Positions 14,325 to 19,721 of a stretch of DNA of 27,217 bases are shown here, one piece after another. The translations under genes were made by a program, and so were the position numbers. The notes beneath the pieces were generated by a model. It did not search any database, was not told the DNA's origin, and saw only the letters and a list, made by a program, of their open reading frames with translations. Within the stretch, counting starts at the first letter, position 1. The number at the start of each line of letters is the position of its first letter. This DNA comes from Fervidobacterium sp. (GTDB taxonomy: Bacteria; Thermotogota; Thermotogae; Thermotogales; Fervidobacteriaceae): contig DPIB01000016.1 in assembly GCA_003522805.1 (NCBI GenBank), positions 1 to 27,217 of the forward strand, given 5' to 3'.

Positions 14325-15089
14325 ATGGATATCGTATCGGTAAGGGATTTGAAGTTTTCTTATGGTGGAGGTTTTTCAATCGACAATTTAAACCTATCAG
14401 TTGAAGAAGGCGAGTTTTTTGGGATAATAGGCCCCAACGGTTCCGGAAAGACTACGTTGCTGTCACTGATAATGAAGTTCATGAAGCCGAATTTTGGCAA
14501 GATAGTACTGAACGGTAAGGATATAGGCACACTTTCTCACAAGGAACTGGCACAGATAATCGCCTACATTGCTCAAGATTTTAATTCCACATATGATTTC
14601 ACAGTTGAAGAGATTGTGGAAATGGGTGGTATAGCAAGATCACGTGGCTTCTTTGACACAAAAGTGTATGAAGATGATTTGGAAGATGCGTTAAGAACTG
14701 TCAATTTGCTCGACTACAGGAAAAGAATCTTCTCAACGCTTAGTGGTGGTCAACAGAGGCGTGTGTTGATAGCTAGAGCAATATACCAAAAAACTCCCAT
14801 CATTTTAGCCGATGAACTAGTAAATCATCTGGATCTCGGTCAGTCCTTAAAGGTAATGGACTATCTCAAATCCCTGACCAATATGGGAAAAACAGTTATC
14901 GGGACATTCCATGACATAATGATAGCTGGAAAGTATTGTGATAGAATCGCACTCATGAATAACGGAAAGATCATGAAAATCGGTATACCTAGCGAAGTCT
15001 TGACAAAAGAGATCATTACCGAGATTTACGGTGTGGAGGTAGATATAATACCACATCCGAAGAAAAAGTACCCAATAGTCTTGATTTAG
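14325..15089 (+). CDS. ABC transporter ATP-binding protein, FecE/BtuD type, without neighbours
   Basis: This 254-residue ATPase has Walker A GPNGSGKTT (36-44), Q-loop IAQDF, signature LSGGQQRRVLIA (near 139), Walker B IILADELVNHLD with the catalytic Glu kept, and H-loop GTFHD. The layout (EEIVEMGG, YDFTVEEIV, GIPSEVLTKEIITEIYGV) is that of import ATPases for iron-siderophore, heme or cobalamin. The usual EPT is ELV here. No permease or binding protein lies beside it: the transglycosylase is upstream and a long non-coding leader downstream. Partners must be elsewhere. A GGAG lies eleven bases before the ATG, which is longer than ideal. Confidence 0.93.
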   Translation: MDIVSVRDLKFSYGGGFSIDNLNLSVEEGEFFGIIGPNGSGKTTLLSLIMKFMKPNFGKIVLNGKDIGTLSHKELAQIIAYIAQDFNSTYDFTVEEIVEMGGIARSRGFFDTKVYEDDLEDALRTVNLLDYRKRIFSTLSGGQQRRVLIARAIYQKTPIILADELVNHLDLGQSLKVMDYLKSLTNMGKTVIGTFHDIMIAGKYCDRIALMNNGKIMKIGIPSEVLTKEIITEIYGVEVDIIPHPKKKYPIVLI

Positions 15090-15173
15090 CTTATTTACAA
15101 AAGAACGCTTGCTGATTCTGTAAATGGTACTACTTTTAGTGTATTCTGTAACATAATTCACTGATAATTAACG

Positions 15174-15203
15174 TTGACTGATGTTTACTGTTCGTGGTAG
15201 GAT
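15174..15203 (+). promoter_or_regulatory. Promoter for the pur leader
   Basis: TTGACT, an 18-base spacer, and TAGGAT preceded by TGG (extended -10). Transcription would begin near 15210 and run through the PyrR-type hairpin, the short ORF and the attenuator into purE. This is the best promoter in the 653-base gap between the ABC ATPase and purE. Confidence 0.55.
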
Positions 15204-15273
15204 ATGTTTTAGGGTATGCTTATAGATCAGCTATCTAGTTGTTAACCTGTCGTATAGACTACTATGCCAAGTA

Positions 15274-15304
15274 CCTTTAAATTCGTCCAGAGAGGCGAGA
15301 AAGG
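15274..15304 (+). promoter_or_regulatory. PyrR-binding RNA hairpin (pyr-type regulatory element)
   Basis: CCTTT (15274-15278) pairs with AAAGG (15300-15304), with asymmetric internal loops and an upper hairpin CGTCCAGAGAGGCG at 15284-15297. The known PyrR consensus is ARUCCNGNGAGGYU. All 12 inner positions match, and the outer A-U pair is replaced by C-G, which keeps the pairing. The terminal hexaloop CAGAGA fits CNGNGA. PyrR with UMP normally binds such loops in front of pyrimidine genes; here the next operon is purECSQL. The 3' arm contains the SD of the ORF at 15314. Confidence 0.65.
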
Positions 15305-15313
15305 AGAAGAAAA

Positions 15314-15517
15314 GTGAGTAATCCACTCTACTCTCCCACAGATTCATCCATAGCTTATCAATCGAATTTCAGCCAAGAATTTGATATTTTGATATTTCCA
15401 AGATTAGACTGGGTAAGTTCGGTGCGCAATAAACCATTGCGCACCTATTGTGCTTTTTACAATCACACTATCACAACATCACAACAACAGGTGTATTCAC
15501 GTCTAATGCGTCTGTGA
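15314..15517 (+). CDS. Possible leader ORF under the PyrR-type hairpin
   Basis: The ORF has 67 codons starting at GTG, with AAAGGAG seven bases upstream, inside the 3' arm of the PyrR-type hairpin. The product (starting MSNPLYSPTDSSIAYQ) matches nothing I recognise and has no domain, membrane segment or signal. Its codon usage looks no better than a chance frame. The ORF spans the whole attenuator at 15421-15458, so its translation would melt those hairpins. It could be a regulatory leader peptide, the truncated start of a lost pyrimidine gene, or chance. Confidence 0.3.
   Translation: MSNPLYSPTDSSIAYQSNFSQEFDILIFPRLDWVSSVRNKPLRTYCAFYNHTITTSQQQVYSRLMRL
15421..15458 (+). terminator. Attenuator: two overlapping hairpins before a U-tract
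   Basis: Hairpin A is a perfect 10-base stem, GGTGCGCAAT/ATTGCGCACC (15421-15430 with 15436-15445), loop AAACC. Hairpin B is GCGCAATA/TATTGTGC (15424-15431 with 15446-15453), eight pairs including one G-U, and is followed at once by TTTTT (15454-15458). They share the left arm and exclude each other. B has terminator geometry; A is stronger but stands eight bases from the U-tract. Either could terminate the leader transcript before purE. Confidence 0.6.
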
Positions 15518-15622
15518 TATTCTGTAAAATATGGTAATAATACTACAGGTACTGATATAAGTGACATAATTGTAATTGGGTATAACTGATAACTGAGAGA
15601 TTCTTTAAAAGTTTGCAATTTC

Positions 15623-15644
15623 TTAGTACAAAATTAGTACAAAA
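15623..15644 (+). repeat. 11-base tandem repeat upstream of purE
   Basis: TTAGTACAAAA occurs twice in perfect tandem, about 100 bases before purE. It is followed by small stems GTGC-GAAAA-GCAC (15648-15660) and GGC-ATAAA-GCC. It could be a paired binding site or a slippage product. Apart from these elements I see nothing recognisable between 15459 and 15742. Confidence 0.8.
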
Positions 15645-15742
15645 AGAGTGCGAAAAGCACAAGGCATAAAGCCGTGGGGGATTTTGAAAAATATCGAAAA
15701 GTCGGAGACACCTGGGAGACCTGGGAAAGAGGTGGGCAGTTC

Positions 15743-16315
15743 ATGGGTTCATTTACCGATTCAACGAATAGCCATCCAGTTGTATCTGTTGTGCCTGTTG
15801 TTTCGATAGTGATGGGCAGTGATTCGGATTTAAAGGTCATGAAAGATGCAGCAAAGGCACTTGAGGAGTTTGGAGTGCCATACGAAATGACGATCCTTTC
15901 CGCACACAGGACACCCGAAAAAACCTCAGTGTATGCACAAAACGCAGAAAAGCGTGGCATAGAAGTTATCATAGCAGGTGCAGGCGGTGCTGCTCACCTT
16001 CCTGGGGTAATTGCGTCTTTGTGTAATATTCCAGTGATTGGGGTGCCCATAAAGTCAACAGCATTCGATGGTATGGATTCCCTTCTCTCGATTGTGCAAA
16101 TGCCAAAAGGCATACCGGTTGCGACAGTCGGTATAAACAACGCCTACAATGCAGGACTGTTGGCTGTGAAGATGCTATCGCTAAAATATGCTGAATTGAG
16201 GGAAAGGACAACTGAGTACAGGCAAAAGATGGCTCAGGAAGTGGAGAAGAAGGCGAAATTGTTGGAAGAAGTAGGATATGAAAGATATGAACAATGCAAG
16301 GAGGAAGGAAAATGA
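15743..16315 (+). CDS. purE: N5-carboxyaminoimidazole ribonucleotide mutase
   Basis: This 190-residue class I PurE isomerises N5-CAIR to CAIR in purine synthesis. Visible motifs are MGSDSDLKVM, SAHRTPE (active-site His), AGAGGAAHLPGV and GVPI. The frame is open from GTG 15674, but the ATG at 15743 has GAGGTGG seven bases upstream and is chosen. Even so, the protein has about 20 extra N-terminal residues, in which the first strand appears twice (PVVSVV then PVVSIV, an 18-base imperfect duplication), and a longer C-terminal helix than E. coli PurE. The stop overlaps the purC start (ATGA). A PurK-type ATPase to make N5-CAIR is not in the window. Confidence 0.95.
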   Translation: MGSFTDSTNSHPVVSVVPVVSIVMGSDSDLKVMKDAAKALEEFGVPYEMTILSAHRTPEKTSVYAQNAEKRGIEVIIAGAGGAAHLPGVIASLCNIPVIGVPIKSTAFDGMDSLLSIVQMPKGIPVATVGINNAYNAGLLAVKMLSLKYAELRERTTEYRQKMAQEVEKKAKLLEEVGYERYEQCKEEGK

Positions 16316-16998
16316 GAGAGGGTAAGACAAAGATAGTTGAAGAATTCGGTGATGATGTCATTCTGCGTTTCAAAGATGACATAACGGCAGGAGATGGGGC
16401 AAAACATGATGTGATGGAGAACAAGGGTTCTATCTGTTGCGAAGTGACTGCCCGGATGATGAAGTATCTGAATGAAAATGGAATCTATACAATGTTCCTT
16501 GAATACCTCCCACCAAATAAACTGCATGCTCGAAAACTCACCATGATCCCACTCGAAGTAATTGTCAGATTCAAGAAAGCAGGATCTTTTATACGAAGAT
16601 ATGGTGGAACGGATGGAGAAGATTTGCCATCTCCTCTAGTTGAGTTTACTTACAAAAATGACGAACTCCATGACCCACTTATGTGCGTGGAACATTTGGA
16701 GGTTCTTGGTATTACAACGAGGCAGGTTGCGTGTGAAATAATAGAGGAGGCAAGAAGGTCAGCTATCTTGCTCAAGAAGTTTTTCGACCAGAACGGTTTT
16801 GAATTGTGGGATATAAAATTCGAGTACGGATTGGACCAAAACGGACGAGTATGTCTCGGCGATGAGATATCACCGGATACGATGCGATTAAGGCGGTCGG
16901 GACAGATATTCGATAAAGATGTGTATAGAAAGGATTTGGGAAATCCTATAGAAAAATATGAGGTGGTGCTTGAATTATGCCGAAATATCAGTTTGTGA
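16312..16998 (+). CDS. purC: Phosphoribosylaminoimidazole-succinocarboxamide synthase
   Basis: This 228-residue SAICAR synthetase joins CAIR and aspartate using ATP. Visible family blocks are GKTKIV at the N-terminus, ITAGDGAKHD, FVxR-like VIVRFKKAGSF, ELWDIKFEYG and GDEISPDTMRL. An ATG at 16294 is in frame, but the AAGGAGG SD at 16299-16305 sits just before the ATG at 16312, which gives the standard start MREGKTKIVEE. It overlaps purE by four bases and purS by 22. Confidence 0.96.
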   Translation: MREGKTKIVEEFGDDVILRFKDDITAGDGAKHDVMENKGSICCEVTARMMKYLNENGIYTMFLEYLPPNKLHARKLTMIPLEVIVRFKKAGSFIRRYGGTDGEDLPSPLVEFTYKNDELHDPLMCVEHLEVLGITTRQVACEIIEEARRSAILLKKFFDQNGFELWDIKFEYGLDQNGRVCLGDEISPDTMRLRRSGQIFDKDVYRKDLGNPIEKYEVVLELCRNISL

Positions 16999-17225
16999 TA
17001 GATATTCAGTACAAGAGTAATGTAAGAGACCCTCGTGGTGAGATGATAAAGCGAGTGTTGAATGATGAATACAGGATACCAGCTTCAAATCTCAGGCTTG
17101 GAAAGTCTATACACTTGGAAATTGATGCAGAAAGTATGGAGGAGGCACTGAAGTTGGTTGATAAGGCTTGTGAAAAGCTTCTGGTAAATACTGTTACGGA
17201 GACGTATGAGGTGAGAAAGATATGA
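16977..17225 (+). CDS. purS: FGAM synthase subunit PurS
   Basis: This 82-residue small subunit of the three-part formylglycinamidine ribonucleotide synthase has the pattern YKSNVRDPRGEMIKR near the start and a C-terminal VTETYEVRKI strand. It mediates assembly of PurQ with the short PurL. The ATG at 16977 lies inside the purC end with AGGTGG ten bases upstream, and the stop overlaps the purQ ATG (ATGA). Confidence 0.96.
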   Translation: MPKYQFVIDIQYKSNVRDPRGEMIKRVLNDEYRIPASNLRLGKSIHLEIDAESMEEALKLVDKACEKLLVNTVTETYEVRKI

Positions 17226-17920
17226 CCAGGTCGTTCCCAAAGGCGCAGGTCGTTGTTTATCCCGGTAGCAACTGCGATAGGGACGCACTCTGGGCACTGA
17301 AGTATGTTGGTTTTGATGCGGAGTTTATAGGTATACATGATCATATTGATGCAGATCTTGTGATATTACCCGGGGGCTTTTCTTATGGGGATTACTTAAG
17401 GGTAGGGGCGGTTGCTGCAAGAGAGCCTATTGCTTCAGAAATCAAAGACTTTGTCAACCGTGGGGGGCTTGTTATTGGTATTTGTAACGGTTTTCAAATA
17501 CTTATCGAAATGAGGTTACTTTCAGGCGCACTGCTTCAAAATTCAACTGGAAAGTTCATCTGCAAGGTAGTGGAGCTTGAAGTTTCCGATATTACAACAC
17601 CCTTTACAAATTACTTCATCAAAGGAGAACGGATCTTATTACCTATCGCACATGGGTTCGGTAGATATGTCAAAACAGATGAGCTGAAAACTAACGTAGT
17701 TTTCAGATATACCGAAGATGTCAACGGTTCTGATGAATTCATTGCCGGTGTTTCAAATAACGATAAGAATGTAATTGGATTGATGCCTCACCCCGAGCGT
17801 TCTATCGAAAGGTTAATCTGCTCAGATGATGGACTTAGGGTATTTCTTTCAGCATTTAATTACATCAAACTCAAGAAGACACAAGAAGACCAAAAGGCGA
17901 ATGCAAAGGTTGGTGTATAA
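17222..17920 (+). CDS. purQ: FGAM synthase glutaminase subunit PurQ
   Basis: This 232-residue class I glutamine amidotransferase supplies ammonia for FGAM synthesis. The nucleophile is Cys88 in GICNGFQIL; the oxyanion region is PGGFSYGDYLR and the His-Glu pair is in MPHPERS. The N-terminal VVVYPGSNCDRD is typical. The C-terminus has a short Lys/Gln-rich extension beyond the usual end (NYIK). It is translationally coupled to purS by a four-base overlap and followed by purL after one base. Confidence 0.97.
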   Translation: MTRSFPKAQVVVYPGSNCDRDALWALKYVGFDAEFIGIHDHIDADLVILPGGFSYGDYLRVGAVAAREPIASEIKDFVNRGGLVIGICNGFQILIEMRLLSGALLQNSTGKFICKVVELEVSDITTPFTNYFIKGERILLPIAHGFGRYVKTDELKTNVVFRYTEDVNGSDEFIAGVSNNDKNVIGLMPHPERSIERLICSDDGLRVFLSAFNYIKLKKTQEDQKANAKVGV

Positions 17921-17921
17921 C

Positions 17922-19721
17922 ATGAAATATATCGATATCCTTGAGAGAAAACTCGGTAGAAAGGCAACGAAGGCAGAAATTGAGGCATTCACTGTCATGT
18001 GGAGTGAGCACTGTGGTTATTCTCATACGAAAGGATATATAAGGCAGTTACCGAGAGTAGGATTCGGTGGTAATGCAGGGATAGTGCCTCTAGATGATTA
18101 CCATTTTATCGCATTTAAGGTGGAAAGCCACAACCACCCAAGTGCAGTAGAACCGTTTAACGGTGCTGCAACAGGTGTGGGAGGAATCATCCGTGACATA
18201 CTTGCAATGGGTGCAAGACCTACAGCTGTTCTAGATTCGCTTCATATGGACAAGATAACAGAAGGTATCATCGACGGCATATCAGATTATGGTAACTCGA
18301 TAGGTGTACCAACAGTCGGCGGTGAACTTAGGATATCGAATTACTATAAATACAATCCGCTTGTAAATGTCATGGCTGTAGGGATTGGAAAGAATGAGCA
18401 TCTGATACCGTCCATGGCTAAAAGGGCAGGGCAGGTCATAGTAATCTTCGGCGGTGCCACAGGTCGTGATGGTATTCACGGAGCTTCGTTCGCTTCAGAA
18501 GATTTGACAGGTGAGAAGGCAACGAAGCTGTCAATCCAAGTTGGAGACCCGTTTGCAGAGAAGATGTTGATCGAAGCATTCCTTGAGATGGTCGAAGAAG
18601 GGTTAGTGGAAGGTGCACAGGATTTGGGGGCTGGTGGTGTACTTTCCGCAACGAGTGAGTTAGTGGCAAAGGCAGATCTTGGTGCAGTAGTTCATCTGGA
18701 GAGGATAGCACTTAGAGAACCGGACATGAATCCTGTTGAGATACTGATCAGCGAGAGTCAAGAGAGAATGGCGGTCGTGACTTCGCCTGAAAAGGCGGAT
18801 AGAGTAATCGAGATAGCAAGGAAACATCTTCTCTTCGCCGATATAGCTGCCGAAGTAACGAAGACAGGACAGTATGTCGCAAAGTATAATGGCAAAACTG
18901 TAATAGACGTACCAGCAAAATTGCTCGAAGAATCACCTGAAGAATCTATCTACGATTATACGCCATCAAAAATGCCAAAGTTTAGCTGGATAAAATTCAA
19001 AGATATTGATGCACATGAAGTATTTGAGAGATACGACTACATGGTTGGTACAGATACAGTGGTAAAGCCGGGTTACGGACCTGCTGTGATGAGGGTGAAG
19101 GGTTCTTGTGGTTATTCTTTAGTGATACATAGTAGAGCAGACCTTGGATTTCAAGACCCTTATTGGGCTGCATACATTACGTTGCTTGAGAGTGTGAGGA
19201 AAACTCTTGCAGTCGGCGCAAGACCGCTTGCAATTACGGATGGCATAAATTACGCAGATCCAGATGTGGAGCCGGAAGGCTTGGCAGCACAGATGATGGG
19301 ATTGAAAAACGCATGCGAGTTTTCAAATGTTCCAGTCGCTTCGGGAAATGCATCGCTTTACAATACTTACAAAGGTAAAGGTATACCACCAACGCTTGTA
19401 ATCGGGATGATTGGAAAGTTGGAAGACTTGAACGTTCCAAGGCCAAAGAAAGGGCCTGTCTATGCTCTAGGATTCAAGGATTTTGAATTGGAGAGGGAGA
19501 AAATACTTTGGAATGAGATAGAGAGAATTGCAAAGTCAGGGCATTTTGTTGTAAGTATGCACGATTTCTCAACGATGTCCACACTTAAAAGCGAGCTGCA
19601 GAATGTGGGGCTTGAAATGAAGTTAAAAATTCCGAAGTGTGAACCTGCACATCAATTGGTTGTAGTGTTTGGAGATGTTGAGACGAAATTGCCAAAAGAG
19701 TTGATTGGATACGTCCGCTAA
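17922..19721 (+). CDS. purL: FGAM synthase large subunit PurL (short type)
   Basis: This 599-residue ATP-dependent synthetase of the short bacterial type works with PurS and PurQ; the length fits the Thermotoga enzyme. The active-site block MWSEHCGYSHTK lies at about 26-37. Further blocks are VESHNHPSAVEPFNGAATGVGG, DLGAGGVLSATSE and the repeated C-terminal AIRS-like domain with AVGARPLAITDGINY. The frame is open from 17826, inside purQ, but the ATG at 17922, one base after the purQ stop with AAAGG upstream, gives the family N-terminus. It is the last pur gene of the operon; purF, M, N, H and D are not here. Confidence 0.97.
   Translation: MKYIDILERKLGRKATKAEIEAFTVMWSEHCGYSHTKGYIRQLPRVGFGGNAGIVPLDDYHFIAFKVESHNHPSAVEPFNGAATGVGGIIRDILAMGARPTAVLDSLHMDKITEGIIDGISDYGNSIGVPTVGGELRISNYYKYNPLVNVMAVGIGKNEHLIPSMAKRAGQVIVIFGGATGRDGIHGASFASEDLTGEKATKLSIQVGDPFAEKMLIEAFLEMVEEGLVEGAQDLGAGGVLSATSELVAKADLGAVVHLERIALREPDMNPVEILISESQERMAVVTSPEKADRVIEIARKHLLFADIAAEVTKTGQYVAKYNGKTVIDVPAKLLEESPEESIYDYTPSKMPKFSWIKFKDIDAHEVFERYDYMVGTDTVVKPGYGPAVMRVKGSCGYSLVIHSRADLGFQDPYWAAYITLLESVRKTLAVGARPLAITDGINYADPDVEPEGLAAQMMGLKNACEFSNVPVASGNASLYNTYKGKGIPPTLVIGMIGKLEDLNVPRPKKGPVYALGFKDFELEREKILWNEIERIAKSGHFVVSMHDFSTMSTLKSELQNVGLEMKLKIPKCEPAHQLVVVFGDVETKLPKELIGYVR

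Follow-up and report, generated by a model that had tools for sequence, protein, structure and literature searches.

PyrR is a textbook pyrimidine regulator. In Bacillus it responds to UMP, and PRPP binds at the same site. In the pyr leader of Thermus ZO5 the PyrR site lies at the ribosome site of a leader peptide, ahead of a terminator, while in Mycobacterium smegmatis PyrR represses translation through overlap with the Shine-Dalgarno (SD) sequence. RsaE and RoxS of Bacillales are C-rich, trans-acting small RNAs. Here we describe a PyrR-type stem-loop that heads a purine operon in Fervidobacterium sp. We lean towards the view that two kinds of RNA-level control, both new for purine genes, act on the pur operon in Fervidobacteriaceae. 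One would be an attenuator that combines PyrR with a leader peptide and responds to pyrimidine status; the other would be a C-rich small RNA, conserved throughout the class Thermotogae, that base-pairs with pur mRNA, each group's site fitting its own small RNA.

The window, the whole 27,217-nucleotide stretch of DNA analysed, carries the stem-loop at 15274..15304 (+), with a lower stem CCTTT/AAAGG, a bulge AAA and an upper stem bearing the core CGUCCAGAGAGGCG. The letters of 15274-15306 are CCTTTAAATTCGTCCAGAGAGGCGAGAAAGGAG, in which the PyrR core UCCNGNGAGG lies within a two-part stem with an internal bulge. An initial annotation, quoting the motif as ARUCCNGNGAGGYU, had described all 12 inner positions as kept and the outermost A-U pair as replaced by C-G, and this description is correct. 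The Rfam PyrR model RF00515 matched 15270-15394 with an E-value of 0.0065 for the whole window and 1.6e-4 for the 661 nt of 15100-15760. Genome-wide, the loop was the best of six matches at E<=10 (E 8.9e-5; runner-up E 0.83); the draft assembly of this genome (G000) comprises 235 contigs with 1,597,621 bases in total and is 82% complete. The RF00515 check suggested in the initial annotation thus gave a significant E-value and a score, 42.9 bits, below the gathering score of 54. We read this shortfall as the missing Bacillus-type antiterminator part of the 115-position model. Taken singly, the window copy would fall short of a listing under Rfam's curated threshold, but four elements with the same layout before purE in genus g5 (presumably Thermosipho) reach it, at 61.3-64.2 bits. 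Upstream of the loop, a scan of 15090-15760 for promoter consensus returned three candidates against 2.2 expected in shuffles, among them a weakly supported sigma-70-like promoter, TTGACT-18-TAGGAT, at 15174..15203 (+).

Five purine genes follow on the same strand: purE (15743..16315; TIGR01162, 221.1 bits, cut-off 149.6), purC (16294..16998; TIGR00081, 166.9 bits, below the cut-off of 189.9), purS (16977..17225; TIGR00302, 47.2 bits, cut-off 39), purQ (17222..17920; NF002957, 261 bits, cut-off 212) and purL (17922..19721; NF010690, 1108 bits, cut-off 1047). The starts of purE (ATG at 15743; GTG at 15674 in the list of open reading frames) and purL (17826 in the list) were chosen by us, and the true purC start is perhaps an internal ATG near 16312.

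Between loop and purE lie features that the initial annotation had not mentioned. An SD sequence, AAAGGAG (15300..15306, +), occupies the 3' arm of the loop and the bases just past it, and serves a leader open reading frame (ORF; 15314..15517, +) of 67 codons plus stop that begins with GTG. Its frame has no stops, while the other two frames have 6 and 3; in 20000 shuffles, openness over the 36 codons to the hairpin arose in 6.3% and over all 67 codons in 0.6%. The ORF crosses an intrinsic terminator at 15421..15458 (+; hairpin 15421-15445), composed of GGTGCGCAAT-AAACC-ATTGCGCACC followed by TATTGTGCTTTTT. A scan of 15090-15760 gave three terminator-like sites, two of them overlapping at 15421..15458, with 0.2 expected. 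Farther on is a small-RNA site, likewise absent from that annotation.

Folding of the whole leader, as minimum-energy and centroid structures, formed the upper stem of the loop and not the lower one, and placed the SD in another hairpin (GGAGA...UCUCC). This alternative hairpin, at 15303-15336, would mask the leader SD and start; none was seen in the sequence of the relative G001. In isolation the loop has a stability of -9.1 kcal/mol at 37 C and -2.3 kcal/mol at 65 C. Given so little stability at 65 C, blocking of the SD would depend on PyrR.

We compared the locus across 61 genomes, the window's own and 60 relatives, of which 45 belong to the order and 20 to the family (f1). The loop heads the pur operon in all 14 family genomes in which both purE and pyrR were found, so the upstream comparison proposed in the initial annotation came out in favour of its claim. 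Two layouts account for the 14. In eight genomes (G002, G003, G005-G009, G013) the order is loop-uraA-purK-purE-purC-purS-purQ-purL, with purE 2.47-2.61 kb from the loop on the same strand. In six (G000, G001, G012, G015, G017, G019) the loop stands directly before purE, with leader ORF and terminator between, and four of these six elements pass the Rfam cut-off. At 20 of 26 aligned loci the SD in the 3' arm of the loop serves a permease gene for about 400 amino acids (uraA), which at one locus is truncated by the contig end. In G003 the product scores above cut-off as an NCS2 nucleobase symporter and matches the uracil permease family NF007995 at 402 bits, below the cut-off of 477; the neighbouring purK was identified as well. 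In g5, uraA lies under a loop of its own, away from loop, leader, terminator and purE.

The uraA and purK genes that stand between loop and purE in eight relatives are missing from the operon in G000 and G001 (window 15089-15743; L117), and no PF00860 match at E<=1e-20 to uraA was found in G000 (82% complete) or G001 (99% complete). In the tree, the position of G000/G001 with respect to g2 and the remaining g1 species has support of 55 and 61, which does not settle whether uraA-purK was lost or inserted. Elsewhere in the set, G011 has a purE match with internal stops and lacks both pyrR and loop. The f2 genomes G022 and G024 have pur genes without a loop in the 13-14 kb read, and no loop was found in the purK-purE regions of G030 and G034 (f2) or G033 (f3).

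All six direct purE leaders share one plan: a loop-borne SD, a start codon 7-9 nt downstream, and then a terminator-like hairpin with a T-rich tail. The leaders have 67 codons in the window, 13 in G001, 21 in G019, 31 in G017, 29 in G015 and 31 in G012, and their stop codons lie, in the same order, at +94, -7, +20, +47, +39 and +47 nt from the first base of the hairpin. Five of the six thus end inside or beyond the hairpin and the G001 leader ends 7 nt short of it, positions from which a translating ribosome would reach the terminator. With its GTG start and 67 codons against 13-31 in the other five, the window's leader is atypical, and control may have weakened in this genome alone. The G001 terminator, GGTGCAATG-TTTTT-TATTGCACC, is at the corresponding place; both arms differ from those of the window with pairing kept. 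(Aligned with MAFFT, the leaders of G000 and G001 fell out of register past the leader start, and that alignment was not used.)

A pyrR gene, which the initial annotation had named as something to look for, is present and intact in the window's genome (G000:C178:3728-4243; NF003549, 225.5 bits against a cut-off of 138; NF003548 also above its cut-off). Its product aligns with solved PyrR proteins, the best at 196 bits, contains ILIDDVLFTGRT and would be expected to bind the loop in a UMP-dependent manner. Across the set, 33 of 61 genomes have pyrR (NF003549, E<=1e-8), 32 of them above cut-off, and within the order the 28 genomes with a loop (E<=0.001) are exactly the 28 with pyrR. G004 (60% complete) has a pyrC loop by eye and no pyrR match. 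Neither pyrR nor loop (E<=0.001) was found in any of the 14 genomes of f3 (presumably Thermotoga and kin), nor in G011 or G016; T. maritima, the named control, has no pyrR and no RF00515 match at E<=0.1. Four genomes of other orders (G046, G048, G052, G054) have pyrR above cut-off and no match to the loop model R1 described below. Together with the RF00515 E-value of 1.6e-4 and the arrangement shared by relatives, the gene bears out the initial annotation's central claim, namely that a PyrR-type element precedes the purine operon.

The loops themselves were compared for pairing. RF00515 matched 29 of the 61 genomes at E<=0.1, four of them above the cut-off. We aligned 26 loops (25 distinct), the window's included, leaving out the weak G000 matches (L002-L006) and second matches without a locus. 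Four further RF00515 matches were dropped as not loop-like (L022 in G025, L029 in G047, L030 in G004, L034 in G046); G025, whose match (E 0.0028) is sub-threshold, has no pyrR. A regular expression detected no core in the regions of further weak RF00515 matches (L216-L223, L226-L228). AAGGAG is invariant in all 26 aligned loops, and every one of 275 paired cells can pair (100% against 91.3% in shuffles, 0/500 as high). Cells changed on both sides numbered 18 against 6.5, and the covariation score was 0.298 against 0.154 (0/500 shuffles as high for each), while pairs with a double change (2) and further pair types (6) were not above shuffles (488/500 as high). At the outer pair highlighted in the initial annotation (columns 15-28), 15 of 25 rows have G-C and 10 have C-G. 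The 26 loops were used to make a 39-nt loop model (R1), which detected a loop in 28 of the 45 order genomes (E<=0.001); since the model mostly re-finds the genomes it was made from, its E-values there are not independent, and the independent test is that with RF00515. In G018, G023, G035, G043 and G060 the R1 matches were weak (E 0.02-0.06), and the G004 match (E 0.0084) is, judged by eye, its pyrC loop.

Loops also occur at pyrimidine genes. In all seven pyrC leaders with a core that were read (six g1, one g2; L115, L120, L121, L122, L125, L224, L225), the core loop lies just past the start codon, inside a leader ORF of 68-97 codons with the motif [MV]VNLV[QL]RGQ[ND]..., and the ORF crosses a terminator-like hairpin with a T-run (by eye). 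By eye, the pyrC leaders of G001 and G004 are arranged in this way too; in G001, GAGAGAC replaces GAGAGGC. In G000, pyrC encodes a dihydroorotase and is followed by pyrK, pyrD, pyrF and pyrE (pyrK and pyrD below cut-offs). Three other pyrC leaders (L322 in G012, L317 in G024, L318 in G020) show, by eye, a short leader ORF and a terminator-like hairpin without the PyrR core, perhaps an attenuator of another kind. Strong g5 loops were found only before purE and uraA, and the single g5 pyrC leader read (G012) has no core loop. In g5, then, purine synthesis and uracil uptake would be the main processes under the 'pyrimidine' regulator.

We consider it likely that the purine operon is governed by a PyrR-controlled attenuator coupled to leader translation. 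Transcription would begin upstream of the loop. With UMP plentiful, PyrR would occupy the loop and block the SD in its 3' arm, so that ribosomes could not load on the leader ORF; untranslated, the leader would let the terminator at 15421-15458 form, leaving purECSQL untranscribed. With UMP low, or PRPP high, the loop would open, a ribosome would translate the leader over the terminator, and RNA polymerase would continue into purE. The loop with its internal SD, the leader ORF, the terminator, the intact pyrR gene and the conservation in relatives, all read from sequence, point to this scheme, in which PyrR binding, the response to ligand and ribosome-dependent read-through are the predicted steps. 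We also infer a role in balancing the two pathways, as the initial annotation had suggested. Its other proposal, a leftover of a lost pyr operon, is unlikely because the loop is kept before the pur operon in all 14 family genomes; what G000 and G001 lack is uraA, not a pyr operon.

A different kind of relic was also considered. The loop could once have governed a uraA ahead of purK-purE, so that with uraA and purK lost from the window's lineage, loop and leader would be decaying remnants. The absence of a uraA match from G000 and G001 and of purK from their operon, set beside eight relatives with loop-uraA-purK-purE, fits this history, as does the stretch CATAAAGCCGTGGGGG, whose place in relatives is ahead of purK or at the 5' end of that gene and which persists upstream of purE here. 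We nevertheless think it unlikely: despite purE proteins that are only 80% identical, G000 and G001 retain the loop, the SD, the start codon and a pairing terminator altered on both arms; g5 shares loop, leader, terminator and purE while its uraA has its own loop elsewhere; and the tree favours neither gene order as the older.

The downstream part of the leader bears on an attenuator of Bacillus type, in which PyrR would stabilise an anti-antiterminator and leader translation would play no part. RF00515 covers the downstream structures of such leaders, and the four g5 purE leaders pass its cut-off (three again on repeat). No antiterminator joining loop and terminator appeared in the minimum-energy or centroid fold, however, where the upper stem and the full terminator coexist; SD and spaced start codon recur in six of six leaders, and at uraA the loop overlaps the SD of uraA itself. 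We regard this design as improbable here. Least credible is the idea that the pur genes are simply passengers of uraA control, even though 8 of the 14 loop-headed pur operons start with uraA under the loop, since in the other six no uraA intervenes and the loop, followed by leader and terminator, stands right before purE. For G000, G001 and g5 the passenger idea is contradicted; for the uraA-purK-purE genomes it could stand. Translation-coupled attenuation by PyrR thus remains our preferred account of the window's operon.

How widely the loop is linked to purine genes was gauged by a loop-plus-SD pattern scan of one genome per species in 84,980 species, from which records very close to the window's genome were possibly excluded. 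It gave 86 stretches, 80 of them examined as loci. Within 3.5 kb downstream of these 80 loops, 59 had only uraA or pyr genes and one had uraA, purK, purE and purC (L179, the record of G009); the remaining 20 had none of the ten query genes, six of them with fewer than 1000 nt readable, including L165 (the record of G001). With purE, purC and purK as the only pur queries, linkage to pur genes was seen, within these limits, only in Thermotogota. Among the top literature matches we found no report of PyrR control of purine genes in Thermotogota, although database or supplementary listings may exist. What is new is the gene set: purine genes under a PyrR-type loop, conserved in a family. Sun et al. 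2013 (PMC3766115) surveyed RF00515 in 255 genomes, 11 Thermotogales included, and Latif et al. 2013 (PMC3636130) tabulated putative T. maritima ncRNAs; the available parts of PMC13157175 and PMC3917532 have no bearing on the question.

Downstream of the terminator, GCATAAAGCCGTGGGGG (15664..15680, +) is a 17-nt perfect complement of a C-rich small RNA and a candidate second regulatory site. The candidate small RNA, about 75 nt with its terminator, lies at G000:C126:4838-4931 (minus) in a gene-like stretch (L267, L283; also L275-L304). Its sense strand reads AGAGAACCCCCTATCCCCCTTGAGATACACCCCCCACGGCTTTATG, followed by a terminator hairpin with a T-run; the G008 copy lacks the terminator. Across the 30 loci read, from f1, f2 and f3 genomes, the core hardly varies. 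A FlhA-like reading frame accompanies 10 of 15 small-RNA loci by motif script, and L248 by eye; its family was checked in L250 only (FHIPEP, 547 bits). A model made from 14 copies (R2) matched 52 of 61 genomes at E<=0.01 and 40 at E<1e-10, f3 included, 26 of these 40 being outside the model; weaker matches (E above about 1e-5), of a kind that individual genomes also give as a second match, may be chance. Five small-RNA loci matched no Rfam family at cut-off, and among the literature matches listed we found no published report of this small RNA.

The position of the site in the operon varies. It precedes purE in the window's clade; sister species have it ahead of purK or at the 5' end of that gene, and in g5 it is at the purE-purC junction. 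Among the eight uraA-purK-purE genomes, the 16-nt core CATAAAGCCGTGGGGG at purK is exact in seven and has one change in G006, and it is exact before purE in G001; the 10 genomes of these two site classes all carry CATAAAGCCGTGGGGG antisense to a short C-rich stretch. The g5 small RNA is CACAGCTTTGAGCGG, or CACAACTTTGAGCGG in G015, and the junction of the four g5 genomes reads CCGCTCAAAGCTTGTGGGGAAGTATCT[TC]TAAGGGGG, a 36-nt, near full-length complement with bulges that spans the purE end and the purC SD (L126, L127, L236, L119). Third codon positions there agree at 10-11 of 11; elsewhere in purE, the four most distant of the six genome pairs agree at 56-61 of 134. This implies that more than protein sequence is kept. 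No complement of at least 13 nt was present in the pur regions read of G022, G024, G030, G034 and G033, and none of the viral contigs scanned held the site.

Predicted duplexes between site and cognate small RNA have energies from -37.6 (G000) to -50.2 kcal/mol in nine g1/g2 genomes (G008 excluded) and from -59.9 to -64.9 kcal/mol in the four g5 genomes. None of 1000 target shuffles was as good in the five genomes tested (G000 and g5), an excess that is partly selection because the sites were picked for complementarity. With the small-RNA terminator included the margin is smaller (G000, -43.8 against -41.2 for the lowest of 100 shuffles). Exchanging partners weakens pairing in both directions: g5 small RNAs lose about 10 kcal/mol on g1/g2 sites (15 for G015), and g1/g2 small RNAs about 7-10 kcal/mol on g5 sites, so that each pur site fits its own genus's variant better by 7-15 kcal/mol. 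The g1/g2 and g5 sites do not occupy the same part of the operon, so what is observed is a fit between site and small RNA and not covariation column by column. These comparisons offer good evidence that the candidate small RNA would pair with pur mRNA in the family. In three further loci (L265 in G003, L246 in G006, L273 in G005) a AAAGCCGTGGGGG motif stands just ahead of a small ORF with a weak sigma-70 region 2 match (20.5 bits in L273, 21.3 in L265; cut-off 24), possibly a second target.

If these readings are right, the pyrimidine pool would act directly, at the RNA level, on purine synthesis, and having a PyrR element conserved before a purine operon would allow a test of PyrR as a general PRPP/UMP gauge. 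The small RNA is a candidate conserved trans-acting regulator for Thermotogota, with a predicted target.

Compared with described systems, the window element shares with RF00515 and the Bacillus-type pyr attenuators a conserved loop core, a two-part stem and a matching PyrR protein in the genome. It differs in scoring below the gathering cut-off, in its C-G outer pair, in the SD inside the loop, in having no antiterminator in the minimum-energy or centroid fold, and in the purine genes downstream. As in M. smegmatis, the 3' arm of the loop overlaps an SD, a layout also present at uraA of relatives, but the window's SD serves a leader ORF and not the controlled gene. The candidate small RNA resembles RsaE/RoxS in its short C-rich stretches able to pair with G-rich ribosome sites and in its intrinsic terminator; unlike them it comes from Thermotogota and, in five loci, matches no Rfam family at cut-off. 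The closest parallel in proposed logic is the Thermus ZO5 pyr leader, where PyrR blocks leader translation and the terminator forms. Its hallmark, a leader SD within the PyrR loop, recurs in six of six direct purE leaders, from which read-through into purE would likewise depend on leader translation. The Thermus leader controls a pyrimidine operon in another phylum, whereas the one described here stands before purECSQL.
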